NCBI GenBank assembly: GCA_017650325.1
Contig: JAGCFC010000184.1
Span: forward strand, 1 to 37,111
Source: Salinivirgaceae bacterium
Lineage (GTDB): Bacteria > Bacteroidota > Bacteroidia > Bacteroidales > SZUA-534
DNA: 37,111 nt
Direction of reading: 5' to 3'
The translations under genes were made by a program, and so were the position numbers. Below are positions 23,901-30,958 of the stretch, piece by piece. Within the stretch, counting starts at the first letter, position 1; every line of letters begins with the position of its first letter. The notes under the pieces are model-generated. The model was not told the DNA's origin. It did not search any database and saw nothing but the letters and a program-made list of their open reading frames with translations.

Positions 23901-26900
23901 TTAGTTGTTTATTGCATTACTCATTAAATACAGGGTTGCTTTCAGTTTGTGATCCTCGATGGCTTTTTGATTGACTTCGTACTTGATTTTATCGTCAATC
24001 ATCACAAAGTTGATGCATGAACCATTTTCCAAAGCGCCTGGGCTGTCGCTGACAATCAAAGTGGCGGCGCTGCCGAGTTTTGCCACAGCCGACTTGATTT
24101 TGTCAGAACTGCTTTCGTCTGTGGGCAAATAAAGAATACTACACTTCGAAATTTCCTCAATATTCTTGGCGCCAACCACTGAAATTGTGCTTTTGCCAAC
24201 CGTTTTGCCTTTGGTTATTGATTCCAACTGTTTCAGCATATTATCTTGATTCACAACACATATCACAAAATCGCCTTTTGTTTCACTTGCTGGCCATTCA
24301 ACTTGTTTTGTGAAATTATAGATATTCATTGCTTTGAATTTTGAATCTTGCAACGGGTTGCTGTAAACGGGGTGTGTTGTTGCTTTGCCGTTCAACACAT
24401 TCTCAATCGTGAGTTCAAGTTCGTCGGCAGCAATGTCACGCCACAAAATTGTGCCGTCGGGACCGAAAAGTATTACTTCATCTTTGCCGCCAAGTCCATA
24501 TTGGGAAGATTTGTGAGAAGTGTCATAATACATTTTGTAGCTGATACCCATATCTTTATATATTTTGTCATAGAAATTCGACATCGAAATATGGGTGCAT
24601 TTGATACCAATCACATCTACCTTGCCTCCTTTTTGTTTCTTCCACAGTGCCTCGACAGAATCTTTGATTGCGCCATCGTCAGAATAACTGAAATGAACGA
24701 GAACGTACCGACCTTTGCCCACAATGTCGGACAGGCTCGGGCGGTTGTTGGTATTGGTCATATTCATCAAGTCCAAATCAATGAACATTTTGCCCGGAGC
24801 GGTGTTGGCGCGGGCTTCATTGCGACGCTTCAGCGATTCTTCCCTTACTTTTTTCCAATAATCGTCGCGTTGTTTCAAAAGTTTCACCATCGGATTTTGC
24901 AAGGTTTTTTGAGGCAGAATGCTGTAATCGGCATTCCATGGTCCAATCAGATATTGCATTACCAAGCCAAGATTGCTGCCGTTCTTTTTCACGTATTCGT
25001 TAATGGCTGCGTTGGCCTTGTCGCCTTGCTTGTCAAATATTTCATTGAATTTCTTCTCGGCTTTTTCCCACTCGGTATAGAATTTCGAGCCGGTCAGTTG
25101 ATACGAAGGCATTTCCATCCTAAATCCCATCCCTCCATCACGCTTAATTCCTGTTGACTTCAAAGTGAACTGCGCGTTTTCGCCGGGCACAAACGGAATG
25201 CTTACCTGGTAGGACCATATCGTTCCTCCATCGACCAAAGTTTGCAGAACCCATACCATGCACGGCTCGTCGAGATAGGTGCTGAATGTGGCCTCACCGT
25301 TACTATCAAGTTCGACATCGTCTAACAGACGAGTGGTGCTTGTATGCGTCTCATCAAGTTCAAGTCTGAAGCCTGAGAGTTCGTTTGTGAGTTCGGTTTT
25401 GAATGTAATGCTGAAGTTCGGTTTTTGGTCGGCATTCAAATTCTCGGTAATGTCCGCCACAATTACGTTTACACTATAATCGGCTACATCGACCCATTGA
25501 CTTTCACCATTCTCGTTGAAAAAGGATACCTTGTTGTTGACTTTCTGTACTAAATCGAATTGGGTTACACCTTTCGGCAGCGGCTCGAATGAATAGCGGG
25601 CGCCACGGATATAGTCGAGATAGCGACGTGTGCCACCGCTTTCGTTATGCAGCATTTTGTAAAGATTGCCCGCTGTGTCACGCAAGCAGACATCTGAACT
25701 CAAACCGGAACGCTCCCAATGCTCCGCCGAAAGGGTTAGAACGGTCTTTTTCTCACAGAATTCGACTTTTTTAATCTTTTGATTGTTACAAACGCTGTAT
25801 TTCACGTTCTCCCAGGTCTTGTATAAACCTTCGGGCTTGGCCACACCGTCGTTCAGGTGGTGGTTTTTGCAGTAGGTGTCGGCCAAACGGCGAATCCTTG
25901 TCAAGTAACCGTTGTAAAGGCTTGACGACGAGTAATATCCGTTGTGAACCGTCAGCTCGAAGGTGACTCCGGGTGCGGCAAATGTCTCAATCCAATCCGA
26001 GCAAATCTCGCCTCCGGGGAATATACAGCGTATGCGGCACACTGTCAGGTCGTCGAGCTCTACCTCGTAGTGGAATTTCTTGTCAACCACCGGCACGCAT
26101 GCCACCGGTTTTTCAATAATCTCGAAGTTCTCGTCGGCAAAATAAATCAGGTAGCACGAGTCGGTAATGCCCGGGTCAACAGCGCCCTCAATCACAAATT
26201 TTCCAGGGCCGAGCGTTTGAAAAACTGTGCGTTCGGTGGTTGTCTGTGTTGTGGCGGCAGTCCTTATTTCCTTGATAAGTGCGTCAATGCGGGCATTAAC
26301 TTCGTTTGCTGCATTTGTTTCGTCTCCTCCTTCTTCAACCATCATTTGCGCATCCATAGCAACAAACATATCTTCGTAGTCGGTAAGGGTTTTCAATCTC
26401 TCCATTATGTTTTTTTGGTAGGCGAAAAGCGTATCGTTGATAAATGAGAATATCGACTCAAGTTCTTTGCGGTTTGCATCGTTCCATTTTTCCGAAACTT
26501 CCAATAATTCCGACTGCAACTTTGGGTAATCCTCGTTATGGAGTTTTTTGAGTGCAAGTTTGTCGGGGGTATCGGACGCTTTCTCTATATAAACCCAATT
26601 TTTGGTAAGCGAATGTGAATAATTCACCATCGATTTACATTCCGCCAGCAGCTTCTGCGAAGCAGCTCTTTCGGTGGATGACAGAGCCTTTATCGAATTC
26701 GGCTCCGATTTCTTTTCGGTGAAGGTGAATGCGCAGAACATAGCTACAAACCACACCAATGTGCCAATTTTTGCCACGCGGCCAAGTGTGCCCACGGTTG
26801 ATTTTTTCATCTCGACAAAACGGCGGCGGATAAACGAGTGGTTGAAGCCGTTCACAACGGGGCTGCTCACATTCATAACCATCTCCAAAAGCGTTGTCTG

Positions 26901-27665
26901 ATAAGCGTTTATGTTGACATCGGACGAAATAACATCGTGGTCGGCCTGGAACTCGTGAACGTTGCGTAACTCGTTGCGGCAGAGCCATACAAACGGATTA
27001 AACCATAACAGTCTGGTTACCAACTCCATAAACCAAACATCAGCATAGTGACGATGGCGGATATGCGCTTTCTCGTGACGGATAATCAAGCTCTTGCCAG
27101 GCTCGTTAAGGCTCGTCGGCAGAAAAATGGTTTTGGCGAACGAGAAAGGTGTGTCAACATTTGGCGAACTAATCAGGCTATAGCCTTCAGTGGTGGTCTC
27201 AACATTCATTTTCGATTTGATAACCAATACCTTGCATATATAGTAAACTGCCAACAGCAACAATAGCAGCGATATGGCCGGGACGCCCCATTGCACCAAT
27301 GCCATCCAATCGATAACAATGGGCCGTTTCTCCTGAACGGGCGCGGCTGACGGTGCAGGTGCCTGCACGGCTGCGGGTGCAGCTGCAGTATTGGTAACTT
27401 GCACGGGCGCAACGTCTGGCACATAATCGGTCTCAACCGGTGTGGCGGGCGCTGTGTAATGGCCAAAGTCAATCTGCTCAATGGCAATTTCTGTTCCCGA
27501 TGGGTAAACCTCGAACGTTACCACACTGAATATCACGCTAATTATCGGTAGCGCAAGCAGATACGCGCGACTGACGGTATAGCTGGCTTTTCCGCGCAAT
27601 ACAATCCGGTAGAATGCGAATAGTAGTGCAGCCGAAGCAATGAATTTTAAAAAGATGGTTAACAT
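23901..27665 (-). CDS. BlaR1-type M56 membrane metallopeptidase fused to thioredoxin-like and YfiR-like domains
   Basis: A 1254-residue protein. Residues 1-320 are an M56 domain: membrane helices near 5-24, 34-51, 122-146 and 298-315, the zinc motif HEKAH (His197, Glu198, His201) and the downstream NELRNVHEFQAD. An Ala/Pro-rich linker (85-115) splits the second and third helices. A helical, Glu-rich region (about 335-480) is followed by a beta domain resembling DUF4369 (about 485-600) and unrecognised beta-rich sequence. Residues about 955-1095 are a thioredoxin-like fold (MFIDLDLMNM, YVLVHFSY, EVILFGPDGTILW) with SYSDDGA where CxxC would be, so no redox pair. Residues 1105-1254 resemble YfiR/DUF4154 (NIYNFTKQVEWP, then NFVMIDDKIKYEVNQKAI). 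It is last in the blaI operon. BlaR1 relatives sense a ligand outside and cleave BlaI inside. Confidence 0.85.
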   Translation of the reverse strand: MLTIFLKFIASAALLFAFYRIVLRGKASYTVSRAYLLALPIISVIFSVVTFEVYPSGTEIAIEQIDFGHYTAPATPVETDYVPDVAPVQVTNTAAAPAAVQAPAPSAAPVQEKRPIVIDWMALVQWGVPAISLLLLLLAVYYICKVLVIKSKMNVETTTEGYSLISSPNVDTPFSFAKTIFLPTSLNEPGKSLIIRHEKAHIRHRHYADVWFMELVTRLLWFNPFVWLCRNELRNVHEFQADHDVISSDVNINAYQTTLLEMVMNVSSPVVNGFNHSFIRRRFVEMKKSTVGTLGRVAKIGTLVWFVAMFCAFTFTEKKSEPNSIKALSSTERAASQKLLAECKSMVNYSHSLTKNWVYIEKASDTPDKLALKKLHNEDYPKLQSELLEVSEKWNDANRKELESIFSFINDTLFAYQKNIMERLKTLTDYEDMFVAMDAQMMVEEGGDETNAANEVNARIDALIKEIRTAATTQTTTERTVFQTLGPGKFVIEGAVDPGITDSCYLIYFADENFEIIEKPVACVPVVDKKFHYEVELDDLTVCRIRCIFPGGEICSDWIETFAAPGVTFELTVHNGYYSSSSLYNGYLTRIRRLADTYCKNHHLNDGVAKPEGLYKTWENVKYSVCNNQKIKKVEFCEKKTVLTLSAEHWERSGLSSDVCLRDTAGNLYKMLHNESGGTRRYLDYIRGARYSFEPLPKGVTQFDLVQKVNNKVSFFNENGESQWVDVADYSVNVIVADITENLNADQKPNFSITFKTELTNELSGFRLELDETHTSTTRLLDDVELDSNGEATFSTYLDEPCMVWVLQTLVDGGTIWSYQVSIPFVPGENAQFTLKSTGIKRDGGMGFRMEMPSYQLTGSKFYTEWEKAEKKFNEIFDKQGDKANAAINEYVKKNGSNLGLVMQYLIGPWNADYSILPQKTLQNPMVKLLKQRDDYWKKVREESLKRRNEARANTAPGKMFIDLDLMNMTNTNNRPSLSDIVGKGRYVLVHFSYSDDGAIKDSVEALWKKQKGGKVDVIGIKCTHISMSNFYDKIYKDMGISYKMYYDTSHKSSQYGLGGKDEVILFGPDGTILWRDIAADELELTIENVLNGKATTHPVYSNPLQDSKFKAMNIYNFTKQVEWPASETKGDFVICVVNQDNMLKQLESITKGKTVGKSTISVVGAKNIEEISKCSILYLPTDESSSDKIKSAVAKLGSAATLIVSDSPGALENGSCINFVMIDDKIKYEVNQKAIEDHKLKATLYLMSNAINN

Positions 27666-27728: not shown

Positions 27729-28145
27729 TTATCCAAGTTTTTCGAGTCGTTTCCGTGCTTTTTTAAGATTTGTTCTTGCCAGTTTGGTATCGATTTTCGG
27801 AACTAAGTAGACGATGGTAACTCGGGTGCGACCGCCCTTCAGTTGTTCTTCAATCCTGCACATCTCGTACACCGTGTTGGCCCAAATTTCGTCTGCCGAG
27901 CCTAACGGTTCCACCAGAATGCAGTCTGACGGCAGCGACAGTCGCTTGGCCTGCAAGCGCTGGATTTTCAATATAGCTTTGTTCTCGGCTTCGGCATGTC
28001 CGGCGCTAACTCTCGATGTTCCTCTTGCTACCTCATACCGGTACGAATCGCCCTTGATTGGAATATTGTAAACCGGCTCTATTTTGGTCTGCGCCGAGGC
28101 TGCCACCGAGAAGAACACAAATGCCGTTGTTAAAAATCCTTTCAT
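27729..28145 (-). CDS. Small secreted protein between blaI and the M56 gene
   Basis: A 138-residue protein starting at ATG 28145 (an in-frame TTG two codons earlier is less likely). MKGFLTTAFVFFSVAASAQ is a signal peptide with an AxA-Q cleavage site. The mature chain contains GTSRVSAGHAEAENKAILKIQRLQAKRL, an alanine-spaced helix like those in small outer-membrane lipoproteins, then beta strands (RVTIVYLVP) and a Lys/Arg-rich C-terminus (KLARTNLKKARKRLEKLG). The family is not recognised. Its position between repressor and sensor suggests it belongs to the same response, perhaps as an envelope ligand or effector. Confidence 0.75.
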   Translation of the reverse strand: MKGFLTTAFVFFSVAASAQTKIEPVYNIPIKGDSYRYEVARGTSRVSAGHAEAENKAILKIQRLQAKRLSLPSDCILVEPLGSADEIWANTVYEMCRIEEQLKGGRTRVTIVYLVPKIDTKLARTNLKKARKRLEKLG

Positions 28146-28171
28146 AATCAAATGGTTATTGTTAGCTGTAT

Positions 28172-28200
28172 GGTTTGCGTTTAAGTTTTCAGTTTACGTC
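28172..28200 (-). repeat. Short dispersed repeat, copy B
   Basis: On the minus strand this matches copy A, ending AAACGCAAACC. It overlaps the last codons of blaI and the gap before the small secreted protein gene. Confidence 0.4.
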
Positions 28201-28590
28201 TTTAGGTTCACCGCCGTTGTCCATCTCCTTCAAGATTTCGGCAAGTTCGTCGCGGCTGATTTTCTCGCTCTTGGCGAAGAAAGAGAAGAACGAGCGCATG
28301 GAACCGCCAAAGACGGTGTCGCAGGTTTCGTTCATAAATCCGCCAATGTACTCGTCACGGGTGAGCAACGGGCGATAGACATTGGCCTTGCCGTTTTTCT
28401 CGAAGTCAACCACACCCTTCTTTGTCAGAATCTGCATAACGGTGAGCGTGGTAGTATAGGCCGGTTTGGGTTCGGCAAGCACATCGTGTATTTGCTGGAC
28501 GGTGGCTTTGCCCTTATCCCACAAAATGTTCATTAAATGCAATTCCGCTTTCGTGAGCGACTGATTGCGGTTTTCTGTTTTGTTTTCCAT
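28189..28590 (-). CDS. blaI: BlaI/MecI/CopY family transcriptional repressor
   Basis: A 133-residue winged-helix repressor. LTKAELHLMNILWDKGKATVQQIHDVLAE then YTTTLTVMQILTKKGVV is the family's DNA-binding core (about residues 10-60), followed by KANVYRPLLTRDEYIG and a C-terminal dimerisation helix. In Staphylococcus the protein represses by binding palindromes and is inactivated when BlaR1/MecR1 signalling leads to its cleavage. Here the operon's third gene is a BlaR1-type peptidase, and two matching palindromes flank the promoter, so the same logic is likely. What is controlled is unknown: no beta-lactamase lies nearby. The symbol denotes family membership only. Confidence 0.92.
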   Translation of the reverse strand: MENKTENRNQSLTKAELHLMNILWDKGKATVQQIHDVLAEPKPAYTTTLTVMQILTKKGVVDFEKNGKANVYRPLLTRDEYIGGFMNETCDTVFGGSMRSFFSFFAKSEKISRDELAEILKEMDNGGEPKDVN

Positions 28591-28608: not shown

Positions 28609-28613
28609 TACTA

Positions 28614-28644
28614 CAAACATAGTATATAAAATTATACACGCAAC
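28614..28644 (-). promoter_or_regulatory. Promoter of the blaI operon
   Basis: On the minus strand the -7 element TATGTTTG (28614-28621) matches TAnnTTTG exactly; GTTG (28641-28644) matches the -33 TTTG at three of four bases, and the spacer is 19 bases. It is the best-formed promoter in the window and lies between two repressor-type palindromes. Confidence 0.75.
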
Positions 28645-28660: not shown

Positions 28661-28678
28661 TTACTAAAATTTTAGTAA
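28661..28678. promoter_or_regulatory. Putative BlaI operator 2, upstream of the promoter
   Basis: TTACTAAAATTTTAGTAA is a perfect 18-bp palindrome, 16 bases upstream of the -33 element. It contains the whole 12-bp core of operator 1. Two like sites suggest cooperative binding or a loop. Confidence 0.7.
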
Positions 28679-28837: not shown

Positions 28838-30199
28838 TTACCGCTTGTCGCACTTCATAAAGCACTCGCCGCATGCCGCTTGCTTTCCGCGAAGGCGGTT
28901 TTCAATCATTTCGGCATAGCGGTCGGCAAGGATTGGTATGCGAATGGTGCGGACAACCTCATGTGCGAAGGCCGACATCAGCATCATTTTTGCCTCCTCT
29001 TCGCCTATGCCGCGTTGGCGCATATAGAACAATGCGTTCTCGTCCAATTGGCCTACAGTGGCGCCGTGGCTGCACTTCACATCGTCAGCGTAAATCTCGA
29101 GTTGAGGCTTGGTGTACATCCGGGCCGAAGGCGAGATGCAGATGTTTTTGTTCGACTGCATTGCGTTGGTCTTTTGCGCATCGGGACGCACAAGAACATA
29201 GCCGCCAAACGCCCCCACAGAGTCGCCGTTGAGCACGTTTTTGTACAGCTCGTAGCTGGTGCAGTTTGGCACAGCGTGGTCGATGTAGGTGAAGTTGTCG
29301 ATATGTTGGTGGCCGCAAGGCAACGACAGACCGTAAATATTGGCCTCGGCGTGCTGGCCGTTCATAAGCACCTCAAGATTGTTGCGCACAAATCCGCCGT
29401 GAAGCGTGAGCGTGTTGGCAAGCAGCTGGCTGCCGGCGTTTTGCTCAATCAGTATGGATGATATCTGCGACGAATGGTCGTTGAGGTTCTGGATGCTGTA
29501 GCAGTCGAGTTGCGAACCGTCGAGCATCACAACCTCGGTGACGTTGTTCAGCAGGAACTGCCGCTCGGCCAGCGTGTGGTCGCAGAAAACAATTTTTGCC
29601 TGACTGCCGCGTCCGGCCACAATCAGGTTTCGCTGATTGACCATCAGCGGGTTTCCTCCCGACAAAACGTTGACAATCTGAATAGGCTTGTCAACAACAA
29701 CATTGTCAGGGATATAGAGGAACAGTCCGCCACGCGCAAACGCCGTGTTCAGACTGATGATAGTGTCGTTTTTGGTAGCGGCCAGACGGTTGTAGTTGGC
29801 CTCGAAAATGTCGGGGTGAAGTTGTGCACCTTCGGCCAATCCGGTCACGGTGACGCCTGCAGGCAGATTGCCGTTTTGTGTGTCAATCCAACCATTGCCG
29901 ACGGTTATGGTGTAGGTGTCGAGTCCGGGAACGGCGCAGCGGAAGGCTTTCTGGCTGTCAACTTGCTCTTTTTGCGGACCGATGGCATAGCCGTGAGTGT
30001 GGCCGAAGGCACCCATAATGTCTGTAAATCGATACCGTTCGCACCCCTTTTCAGGCAATCCCTTTTCATCAAACTGGCTGATGGCAGACTCGCGCTGACG
30101 GTTTATCGCGGCGGGCATTCCGGCGGCAATGCTGTCGGAATACTGGCGATAAAGTGCTGTGAGTTTGTTTTTTATAGCGGTCGAGCTAACCTTTTCCAT
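28838..30199 (-). CDS. sufD: Fe-S cluster assembly protein SufD
   Basis: A 453-residue component of the SufBCD scaffold complex that assembles iron-sulfur clusters in the cytoplasm. The central beta-helix and C-terminal part carry the usual NLEVLMNGQHAEANIYGL, CTSYELYKNVLNGDSVGAFGGYVLVRPDAQKTNAMQ-type segments (partly quoted) and ADDVKCSHGATVGQLDENALFYMRQRGI, including the HGA motif typical of SufD. It begins 3 bases after sufC, so the two are translationally linked. The cluster stops here: no sufS or sufE follows. Confidence 0.93.
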   Translation of the reverse strand: MEKVSSTAIKNKLTALYRQYSDSIAAGMPAAINRQRESAISQFDEKGLPEKGCERYRFTDIMGAFGHTHGYAIGPQKEQVDSQKAFRCAVPGLDTYTITVGNGWIDTQNGNLPAGVTVTGLAEGAQLHPDIFEANYNRLAATKNDTIISLNTAFARGGLFLYIPDNVVVDKPIQIVNVLSGGNPLMVNQRNLIVAGRGSQAKIVFCDHTLAERQFLLNNVTEVVMLDGSQLDCYSIQNLNDHSSQISSILIEQNAGSQLLANTLTLHGGFVRNNLEVLMNGQHAEANIYGLSLPCGHQHIDNFTYIDHAVPNCTSYELYKNVLNGDSVGAFGGYVLVRPDAQKTNAMQSNKNICISPSARMYTKPQLEIYADDVKCSHGATVGQLDENALFYMRQRGIGEEEAKMMLMSAFAHEVVRTIRIPILADRYAEMIENRLRGKQAACGECFMKCDKR

Positions 30200-30202
30200 A
30201 AA

Positions 30203-30958
30203 CTATTTGTTGTCGAATTCGCTTTTAATCCAATCGTAGCCTTTCTCTTCAAGTTCCAGTGCAAGTTCCTTGCCTCCGGTCTTGACAATCTGACCGTTAT
30301 AGAGCACGTGCACCACATCGGGCACAATGTAGTCGAGCAATCGCTGATAGTGAGTGATGACAATGGCCGATGTTTCAGGGGTTTTGAGTTTGTTCACGCC
30401 GCTGGCCACAATTCGCAGAGCATCAATGTCGAGGCCGGAATCGGTCTCGTCGAGGATTGAGAGTCGCGGCTCGAGCATTGCCATCTGGAAAATCTCGTTG
30501 CGTTTCTTCTCGCCGCCCGAAAATCCCTCATTCACAGAGCGTGAGGTCAGTCGCGAGTCGATTTCGACCAACTGGCTCTTCTCGCGCATCATCTTCAGAT
30601 ATTCGGCAGCAGAAAGAGCCGGCAGACCGTTGAATTTGCGTTTCTCGTTGACGGCGGCACGCATAAAATTGACCATACTAACGCCCGGAATCTCAACCGG
30701 ATACTGGAAACTCATAAAAAGACCCATCCGTGCGCGGTCTTCGGGCGGCAGTTCGAGCAGATTCTTGCCCAGAAACGTCACCTCGCCACCATCGACAGTG
30801 AAACGGCTATTGCCCGTCAATACCGACGACAGCGTGCTCTTTCCCGACCCGTTGGGGCCCATTATGGCGTGAATCTCGCCCGCATTGATGTGCAGATTGA
30901 TTCCCTTAAGTATCGGCTTTCCGTCAATCGAAGCCCGTAAATCTTTTATTGTCAGCAT
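30203..30958 (-). CDS. sufC: Fe-S cluster assembly ATPase SufC
   Basis: A 251-residue ABC-type ATPase that powers the SufBCD scaffold. Walker A is GPNGSGKST at residues 34-42; the signature is FSGGE at 146-150; Walker B is [12 protein letters not shown] with Asp170 and Glu171; the H-loop His is in VITHYQRLL. All catalytic residues are present. It has no membrane partner, as expected for Suf. It is separated from sufB by a foreign-looking gene, and the 165 bases upstream contain a -7-like element, so it may have its own promoter. Confidence 0.95.

Follow-up and report, generated by a model that had tools for sequence, protein, structure and literature searches.

A BlaR1-type M56 protease from a Salinivirgaceae bacterium with a predicted four-helix module and a YfiR domain in its predicted periplasmic tail

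The window analysed here, a stretch of 37,111 bp from a Salinivirgaceae bacterium (assembly GCA_017650325.1, contig JAGCFC010000184.1, positions 1 to 37,111), contains on its minus strand a gene for an M56 peptidase with a composite tail (23901..27665, 1254 aa), which starts with ATG and has no internal stop. According to Pfam and hydrophobicity, the first 316 residues (26718..27665, minus strand) hold four predicted transmembrane (TM) helices and the metalloprotease. The remainder carries a predicted four-helix-bundle module, a DUF4369-like beta domain and a second beta-rich stretch, a thioredoxin-like domain and a YfiR (DUF4154) domain. A blaI-type repressor gene lies upstream. The YfiR domain and the four-helix module, which are related to a gene pair of the same genus, are likely to form a periplasmic switch controlling the cleavage of the BlaI encoded upstream, a reading that is held with moderate confidence.

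The preliminary description of this DNA had recognised an M56 zinc peptidase with HEKAH at residues 197–201, and this is borne out, as Pfam Peptidase_M56 matches at 158–269 (E = 8.1e-16, 58.5 bits against a cut-off of 31) and motif inspection places HEKAH at 27063..27077 (minus strand). Downstream lies HEFQAD, whose glutamate corresponds to the third zinc ligand of BlaR1/MecR1. HExxH is present in 64 of the 66 rows of M56 relatives, in which the protein of the window is entered twice. The four hydrophobic segments (1–19, 35–53, 116–134 and 297–315, by the Kyte-Doolittle scale) fit the topology described for BlaR1, that is, four TM helices with both termini outside and a cytoplasmic protease loop (PMC9834060), and the tail from residue 316 to residue 1254 is therefore predicted to be periplasmic. 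This placement, derived from hydrophobicity and the BlaR1 analogy, agrees with the one assumed previously. No penicillin-binding or transpeptidase family was found in the protein by Pfam at E ≤ 1, and the NCBIfam model blaR1_generic gave 29.9 bits against a cut-off of 400. A misassembly or a frameshift-joined gene is rejected on the survey of domain order among M56 proteins that had been proposed, in which 12 further long relatives show the complete order of modules, and also on the fused frame being open in 5 genomes.

The last 150 residues of the protein (1105–1254; 23904..24353, minus strand) had been read as YfiR-like. Judged by Pfam, a family profile, alignment and NCBIfam, this part is a genuine YfiR domain. 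In detail, DUF4154/YfiR PF13689 matches at 1109–1244 (E = 1.5e-29, 103.4 bits, cut-off 24.9), two YfiR models of NCBIfam match at 1.2e-27 and 9.5e-6, below their equivalog cut-offs, and a profile of 32 Bacteroidales YfiR domains, with that of the window placed first, matches the structures of Pseudomonas aeruginosa YfiR (4yn7 and others) with E = 5.8e-8. A single-sequence search with the YfiR part against the PDB sequences gave no match, and in the AlphaFold model of the tail this part is too uncertain for a structural match.

Two cysteines of the domain, Cys1136 (codon 24258..24260, minus strand) and Cys1175 (codon 24141..24143, minus strand), are aligned with Cys71 and Cys110 of YfiR, a pair whose equivalent in HmsC has been proposed as a redox sensor (PMC5550408). 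Both are kept in all five fused YfiRs aligned and in the same-genus gene-pair YfiRs aligned alongside. The structural disulfide Cys145–Cys152 of YfiR is not kept, a single Cys1217 being located nearby and out of register. Tyr1229 is aligned with a YfiR phenylalanine, taken as Phe162 by our own numbering, and an aromatic residue (F or Y) occupies this position of the proposed binding surface in 30 of the 32 YfiRs. It might be argued that what YfiR binds is a small ligand or an outer-membrane partner and that it senses no redox change, the cysteines being structural and the logic of the switch otherwise the same. The first cysteine is indeed missing in 15 and the second in 5 of the 32 aligned domains, many of which cannot form the pair, and in P. 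aeruginosa YfiR is sequestered by YfiB (PMC4655355). The retention of both residues in every fused YfiR aligned and in the aligned gene-pair YfiRs of the same genus points the other way, as does the neighbourhood, since none of the scanned genes next to the M56 gene is of the OmpA type, whereas one such gene adjoins another YfiR of this genome (L054). A YfiR that answers to a ligand or partner without redox sensing is considered rather improbable, and a YfiR that may respond to redox is retained as the working view.

Soon after the fourth TM helix stands a separate part of the tail that the preliminary description did not contain. Residues 336–478 (26232..26660, minus strand) form a predicted four-helix-bundle receptor module, delimited through its homologues, an AlphaFold model (pLDDT 93.4) and structure matches. 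The same module serves as ectodomain in HAMP-GAF-PAS and MCP proteins, and the predicted fold, together with homologues that stand before HAMP or MCP domains, gives it the placement of a 4HB_MCP-type domain. The 4HB_MCP profile itself showed no match to the protein of the window, and a relative (L118) reached E = 1.4e-4 and 21.9 bits with PF12729, under the cut-off of 27. The structural matches of the bundle include the ectodomain of LytS, which was crystallised with the soluble sensor XylFII, and the XylFII-LytS pair provides a precedent for a soluble protein that signals through a four-helix bundle (PMC9769921). Across 38 sequences ranging from receptors to M56 proteins, ten of the module positions (W22, D33, K34, W59, Y95 and others) are invariant.

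On the evidence of genome comparison, YfiR and the four-helix module belong together. The module and DUF4154 surveys each drew 198 genomes of the order, taken from their handles as identical sets; 45 contain the module, 77 contain DUF4154 and 42 contain both. YfiR is thus found in 42 of the 45 module-bearing genomes versus 35 of the 153 module-free ones (Fisher p = 3.6e-18, a value that does not count independent events, the genomes being related). Three of the 63 module matches belong to the family of the window and one fragment (G171) was left out, and in all of the remaining 59 genes the module is found by the six-frame search. A free YfiR gene is located within 3 kb of 22 of these 59 genes outside the family, on the same strand and 0–579 bp away (21 of 57 with stricter gene picking; the six-frame recount is used). 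By motif class, a YfiR neighbour occurs for 11 of 16 MCP-like, 2 of 2 kinase-like and 9 of 41 other genes, the classes being defined by sequence motifs and not by Pfam. The 42 genomes average 4.6 YfiR matches each, and by chance a YfiR within 3 kb would be expected for about 1 gene in 100 (an estimate). The other 37 of the 59 module genes have no YfiR nearby, which is a lower-bound absence with several genes close to contig ends.

Some of these loci deserve separate mention. In five Bacteroidales contigs (L092, L094, L095, L096 and L097), module-HAMP-GAF genes without a nearby YfiR directly follow a conserved gene, presumably a pseudouridine synthase. In Draconibacterium (L093, 4567–6099), a module-MCP gene beside a YfiR is broken into two frames. 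The genome of the window also has a Yfi-like triple without cyclic di-GMP (c-di-GMP) at L054 (5455–10749, G000:C239), consisting of an OmpA-PD40 protein, a free YfiR and a histidine kinase that combines CHASE8 and HAMP with receiver and Hpt domains. Within the genus, a gene of 709–739 aa is divergent from a free YfiR (L052, 8272–11159, G000:C38, and L121–L128); it carries O-antigen ligase (Wzy_C) and TPR domains, as scanned in L052 only, and is a candidate target or partner of the YfiR-receptor pair.

The phylogenetic trees bear on the origin of the two modules. In the tree of 41 YfiR domains, whose loci were partly selected by matches to the protein of the window, the YfiRs of M56 loci (five fused and two free) form one starred clade (100/99), which nests in starred sets with the YfiRs of YfiR-receptor gene pairs (98/96 and 100/100). 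Of the 29 free YfiRs of this tree, 18 adjoin a module gene, 2 adjoin an M56 gene and 9 adjoin neither. Similarly, in the tree of 38 modules, those of M56 loci (seven fused and three free) compose one starred clade (100/100), placed beside the same-genus gene-pair modules with weak support (85/58). This is an indication that both halves of one YfiR-receptor gene pair appear to have moved onto the M56 protease.

The comparison of 11 M56-tail loci from ten genomes of the genus shows the same parts in different arrangements. A free four-helix gene stands upstream in L039, L103 and L104, and the M56 protein of the latter two is without the module, while in L037 and L038 the M56 gene is followed downstream by a free YfiR. 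In the copy of G016 (L106), an 877-aa frame ends inside the thioredoxin part and is followed by stops. No M56 tail was among the matches listed for 1 of the 11 same-genus genomes (G017) and for nine genomes from other genera of the family. The large proteins found with the YfiR part alone, in a word-limited search with 295 candidates, amount to 19 including that of the window, all with M56. The family has other large DUF4154 proteins, with frames of 631–874 aa; the single example scanned for domains (L041) is a histidine kinase. Across the order, further M56-YfiR fusions may exist beyond the DUF4154 matches listed.

Altogether 65 relatives were found, and 18 of them (shorter than 900 aa or missing a core domain) were left out of the comparison of modules. 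Selection of the remaining 47 long relatives was based on the beta parts of the tail; they have the thioredoxin part in all cases, the four-helix module in 26 and YfiR in 19; both modules are present in 13, the four-helix module only in 13, YfiR only in 6 and neither in 15. The four-helix and YfiR modules are optional, and the common part of the tail is the unit formed by the DUF4369-like domain and the dead thioredoxin. The earlier proposal that YfiR replaces the beta-lactam sensor is thus an oversimplification, as 28 of the 47 relatives lack YfiR.

The part of the tail between the four-helix module and YfiR comprises three stretches on the minus strand, namely the DUF4369-like beta domain (482–640; 25746..26222), a second beta-rich stretch (641–860; 25086..25745) defined by secondary structure, and a helical stretch with the thioredoxin-like domain without CxxC (861–1092; 24390..25085), assigned by homology and Foldseek. 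A 381-aa protein of the same genome aligns with residues 490–578 of the tail (E = 2e-21) and, where the alignment resumes, with residues 794–1087 (E = 1e-19), its identity to the DUF4369-like domain being 47% over 90 positions. This homologue carries CGPC in its AhpC/TSA thioredoxin domain and matches DUF4369 just below cut-off. No CxxC exists in the M56 protein, including the position where the homologue has CGPC. CxxC is missing in 49 of 50 thioredoxin-bearing rows (the protein of the window being entered twice), the sole exception being P0052, in which M56 and a thioredoxin part with CGPC are combined. A Foldseek search with the AlphaFold model of the tail retrieved the ResA/TlpA-type structure 3fkf_C (E = 7.5e-7, TM-score 0.79 by target length); the top row, a pilin with a TM-score of 0.19, is not meaningful. 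The thioredoxin-like fold without CxxC noticed at first inspection is confirmed in this way. As regards DUF4369 and TlpA, with which a comparison had been proposed, the same-genome DUF4369/ResA-type homology and 3fkf_C agree with a relation, and the PF14289 profile gives weak matches below cut-off in the region of residues 482–640. Its sequence relationships suggest that the thioredoxin part was once active and probably lost its active site later.

The constancy of this unit raises another explanation, in which the DUF4369-like and dead-thioredoxin parts are the real sensor, for example of unfolded or oxidised clients or of a ligand, and in which the four-helix and YfiR modules come and go with an accessory, modulating part. 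The counts given above (47, 26 and 19, among relatives selected for the beta parts) would suit such a sensor, and so would the retention of CGPC together with M56 in P0052 and the homology that the unit shows to a redox-type protein encoded in this genome. It leaves unexplained, however, the uptake of precisely two modules that form a gene pair elsewhere, and we regard it as unlikely, although deserving attention. The switch formed by YfiR and the four-helix module is the reading followed below.

The blaI-type repressor gene (28189..28590, minus strand, 133 aa; PF03965, E = 1.5e-30) is found upstream of the M56 gene in all 11 loci. In the window, one small open reading frame (ORF) of 140 aa with a signal-peptide-like start (27729..28151, minus strand) is located between them. 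Two exact matches to the perfect palindrome TACTA-N6-TAGTA precede blaI as predicted BlaI operators, operator 1 at 28662..28677 and operator 2 at 28609..28624, 53 bp apart. Operator 2 overlaps a TATGTTTG element, which we take to resemble the Bacteroidetes -7 promoter motif. These are the only two matches in the 3.22-Mb assembly, where the reversed control pattern has one. Two exact palindromes 53–54 bp apart stand upstream of blaI in 6 of the 11 loci, including the window, one exact palindrome is present in a seventh, and the remaining four have a degenerate form. With up to one mismatch, the window contains 4 sites against 0.20 expected; the one-mismatch search gave 36 further sites versus 108 for the reversed control, and no regulon is readable from it. 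As the exact operator is found only upstream of blaI, the clearest predicted target is the operon itself, and BlaI may have further targets with looser boxes.

In view of these operators, the tail modules could be seen as scaffolds exchanged by recombination and devoid of a signalling role, the locus being a self-contained, autoregulated repressor-protease pair. Besides the exact operators being confined to the locus, all four combinations of modules exist, and alignment shows module stretches that are identical between loci differing elsewhere. Such scaffolds would hardly be expected to keep ten module positions invariant in 38 sequences, the surface aromatic in 30 of 32 YfiRs and both cysteines in the five fused forms. 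This explanation is judged very improbable, and a signalling role of YfiR and its receptor module is preferred.

The 140-aa ORF, which the preliminary description did not mention, has no Pfam family. It is represented in 3 of the 11 M56 loci (the window, L104 and L106). In L104 its relative is fused to the four-helix module and makes up the C-terminal portion of a 281-aa protein encoded at the corresponding position. Just upstream of blaI, at 28838–30958, lie a SufBD-type gene and an ABC ATPase (SufC by position). The suf genes were rejected as a part of the system, since relatives recur at L038 and L040, whereas the neighbours shown for L037, L039 and L101–L106 include none. No beta-lactamase or penicillin-binding protein (PBP) gene was present among the few neighbours scanned. 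As for the host bacterium, its nearest named relatives originate from ruminant stomachs.

In P. aeruginosa and Yersinia, YfiR or HmsC represses a transmembrane partner from the periplasm (PMC3375315, PMC4655355, PMC5550408). Here, no GGDEF match was found in the 20 genomes of the family, 17 of which are at least 90% complete, whereas 8 of 14 control genomes match. A diguanylate cyclase partner is therefore unlikely, and an action of YfiR on such an enzyme was rejected on this ground. Since the cysteine pair and Tyr1229 are kept and no GGDEF match was found, a c-di-GMP-free switch of the Yfi type that works through a protease is proposed. YfiR would dock on the four-helix module of the same chain, of a dimer partner or of a neighbouring secreted protein, and in the docked state it would hold the protease off, as YfiR/HmsC does with YfiN/HmsD. 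The protease would then be released by an altered state of the envelope, such as reducing conditions in which the Cys1136–Cys1175 disulfide is lost. A movement through the fourth TM helix would reach the zinc site, BlaI would be cut and the blaI operon derepressed, with this operon as the clearest predicted output. We infer both the binding of YfiR to the module and the signal; by analogy with the known systems, BlaI would be the substrate of the M56 protein and reducing conditions would be the direction that frees the protease.

In a wider and more tentative form, the locus may represent a c-di-GMP-free Yfi system in one polypeptide, in which YfiR and its co-evolved receptor have moved onto a BlaR1 protease and periplasmic redox stress leads through BlaI proteolysis to transcription. 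YfiR with a four-helix receptor would then serve Bacteroidales in general as an input module whose output can be exchanged (chemoreceptor, GAF/PAS, kinase and protease). This larger proposal is possible, but less probable than the switch itself.

The system resembles BlaR1/MecR1 with BlaI/MecI of Staphylococcus and Bacillus in its M56 motif, the four predicted TM helices, the upstream BlaI and the palindromes before blaI. It differs in the lack of a detectable penicillin-binding sensor, the tail being composed of the four-helix module, the DUF4369-like domain, the dead thioredoxin and YfiR, and in its surroundings, as the few neighbours scanned include neither a beta-lactamase nor a PBP gene. 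With YfiBNR of P. aeruginosa and HmsCDE it shares YfiR as the periplasmic input, the Cys71–Cys110-type pair and the surface aromatic. In contrast to these systems, a protease takes the place of the diguanylate cyclase as output, the genome gives no GGDEF match, the ectodomain is a predicted four-helix bundle instead of PAS/CHASE8, and YfiR is fused in cis. Malone et al. (2012) describe a modular YfiR-YfiN[PAS] core that is combined with kinases, Hpt, EAL domains and MCPs (PMC3375315), and the present case is similar in joining YfiR and a receptor to varied outputs; a protease output, a four-helix receptor and a single-chain fusion are not among the systems in the portion of that article consulted. 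XylFII-LytS of Clostridium likewise has a soluble periplasmic sensor acting on a four-helix-bundle ectodomain, but there the sensor is a sugar-binding protein, the output a histidine kinase, and the two are not fused. Finally, homology to the DUF4369-TlpA/ResA oxidoreductases of Bacteroidota is detectable over the beta domain and the thioredoxin part, which here is without CxxC and fused to M56.

No published description of an M56-YfiR architecture was found in the open-licence literature, in line with the preliminary description, which knew of none. Beta-lactam sensing is the role for which proteases of the BlaR1 type are mainly known, and YfiR is known chiefly for restraining diguanylate cyclases. 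The locus offers a small testable system with an operator, a repressor, a protease and two separable input modules, for each of which natural variants without it exist. The presence of M56 and YfiR in one protein would mark the M56/BlaI relay as a general output of envelope signalling and YfiR as a portable input domain that is also functional without c-di-GMP.

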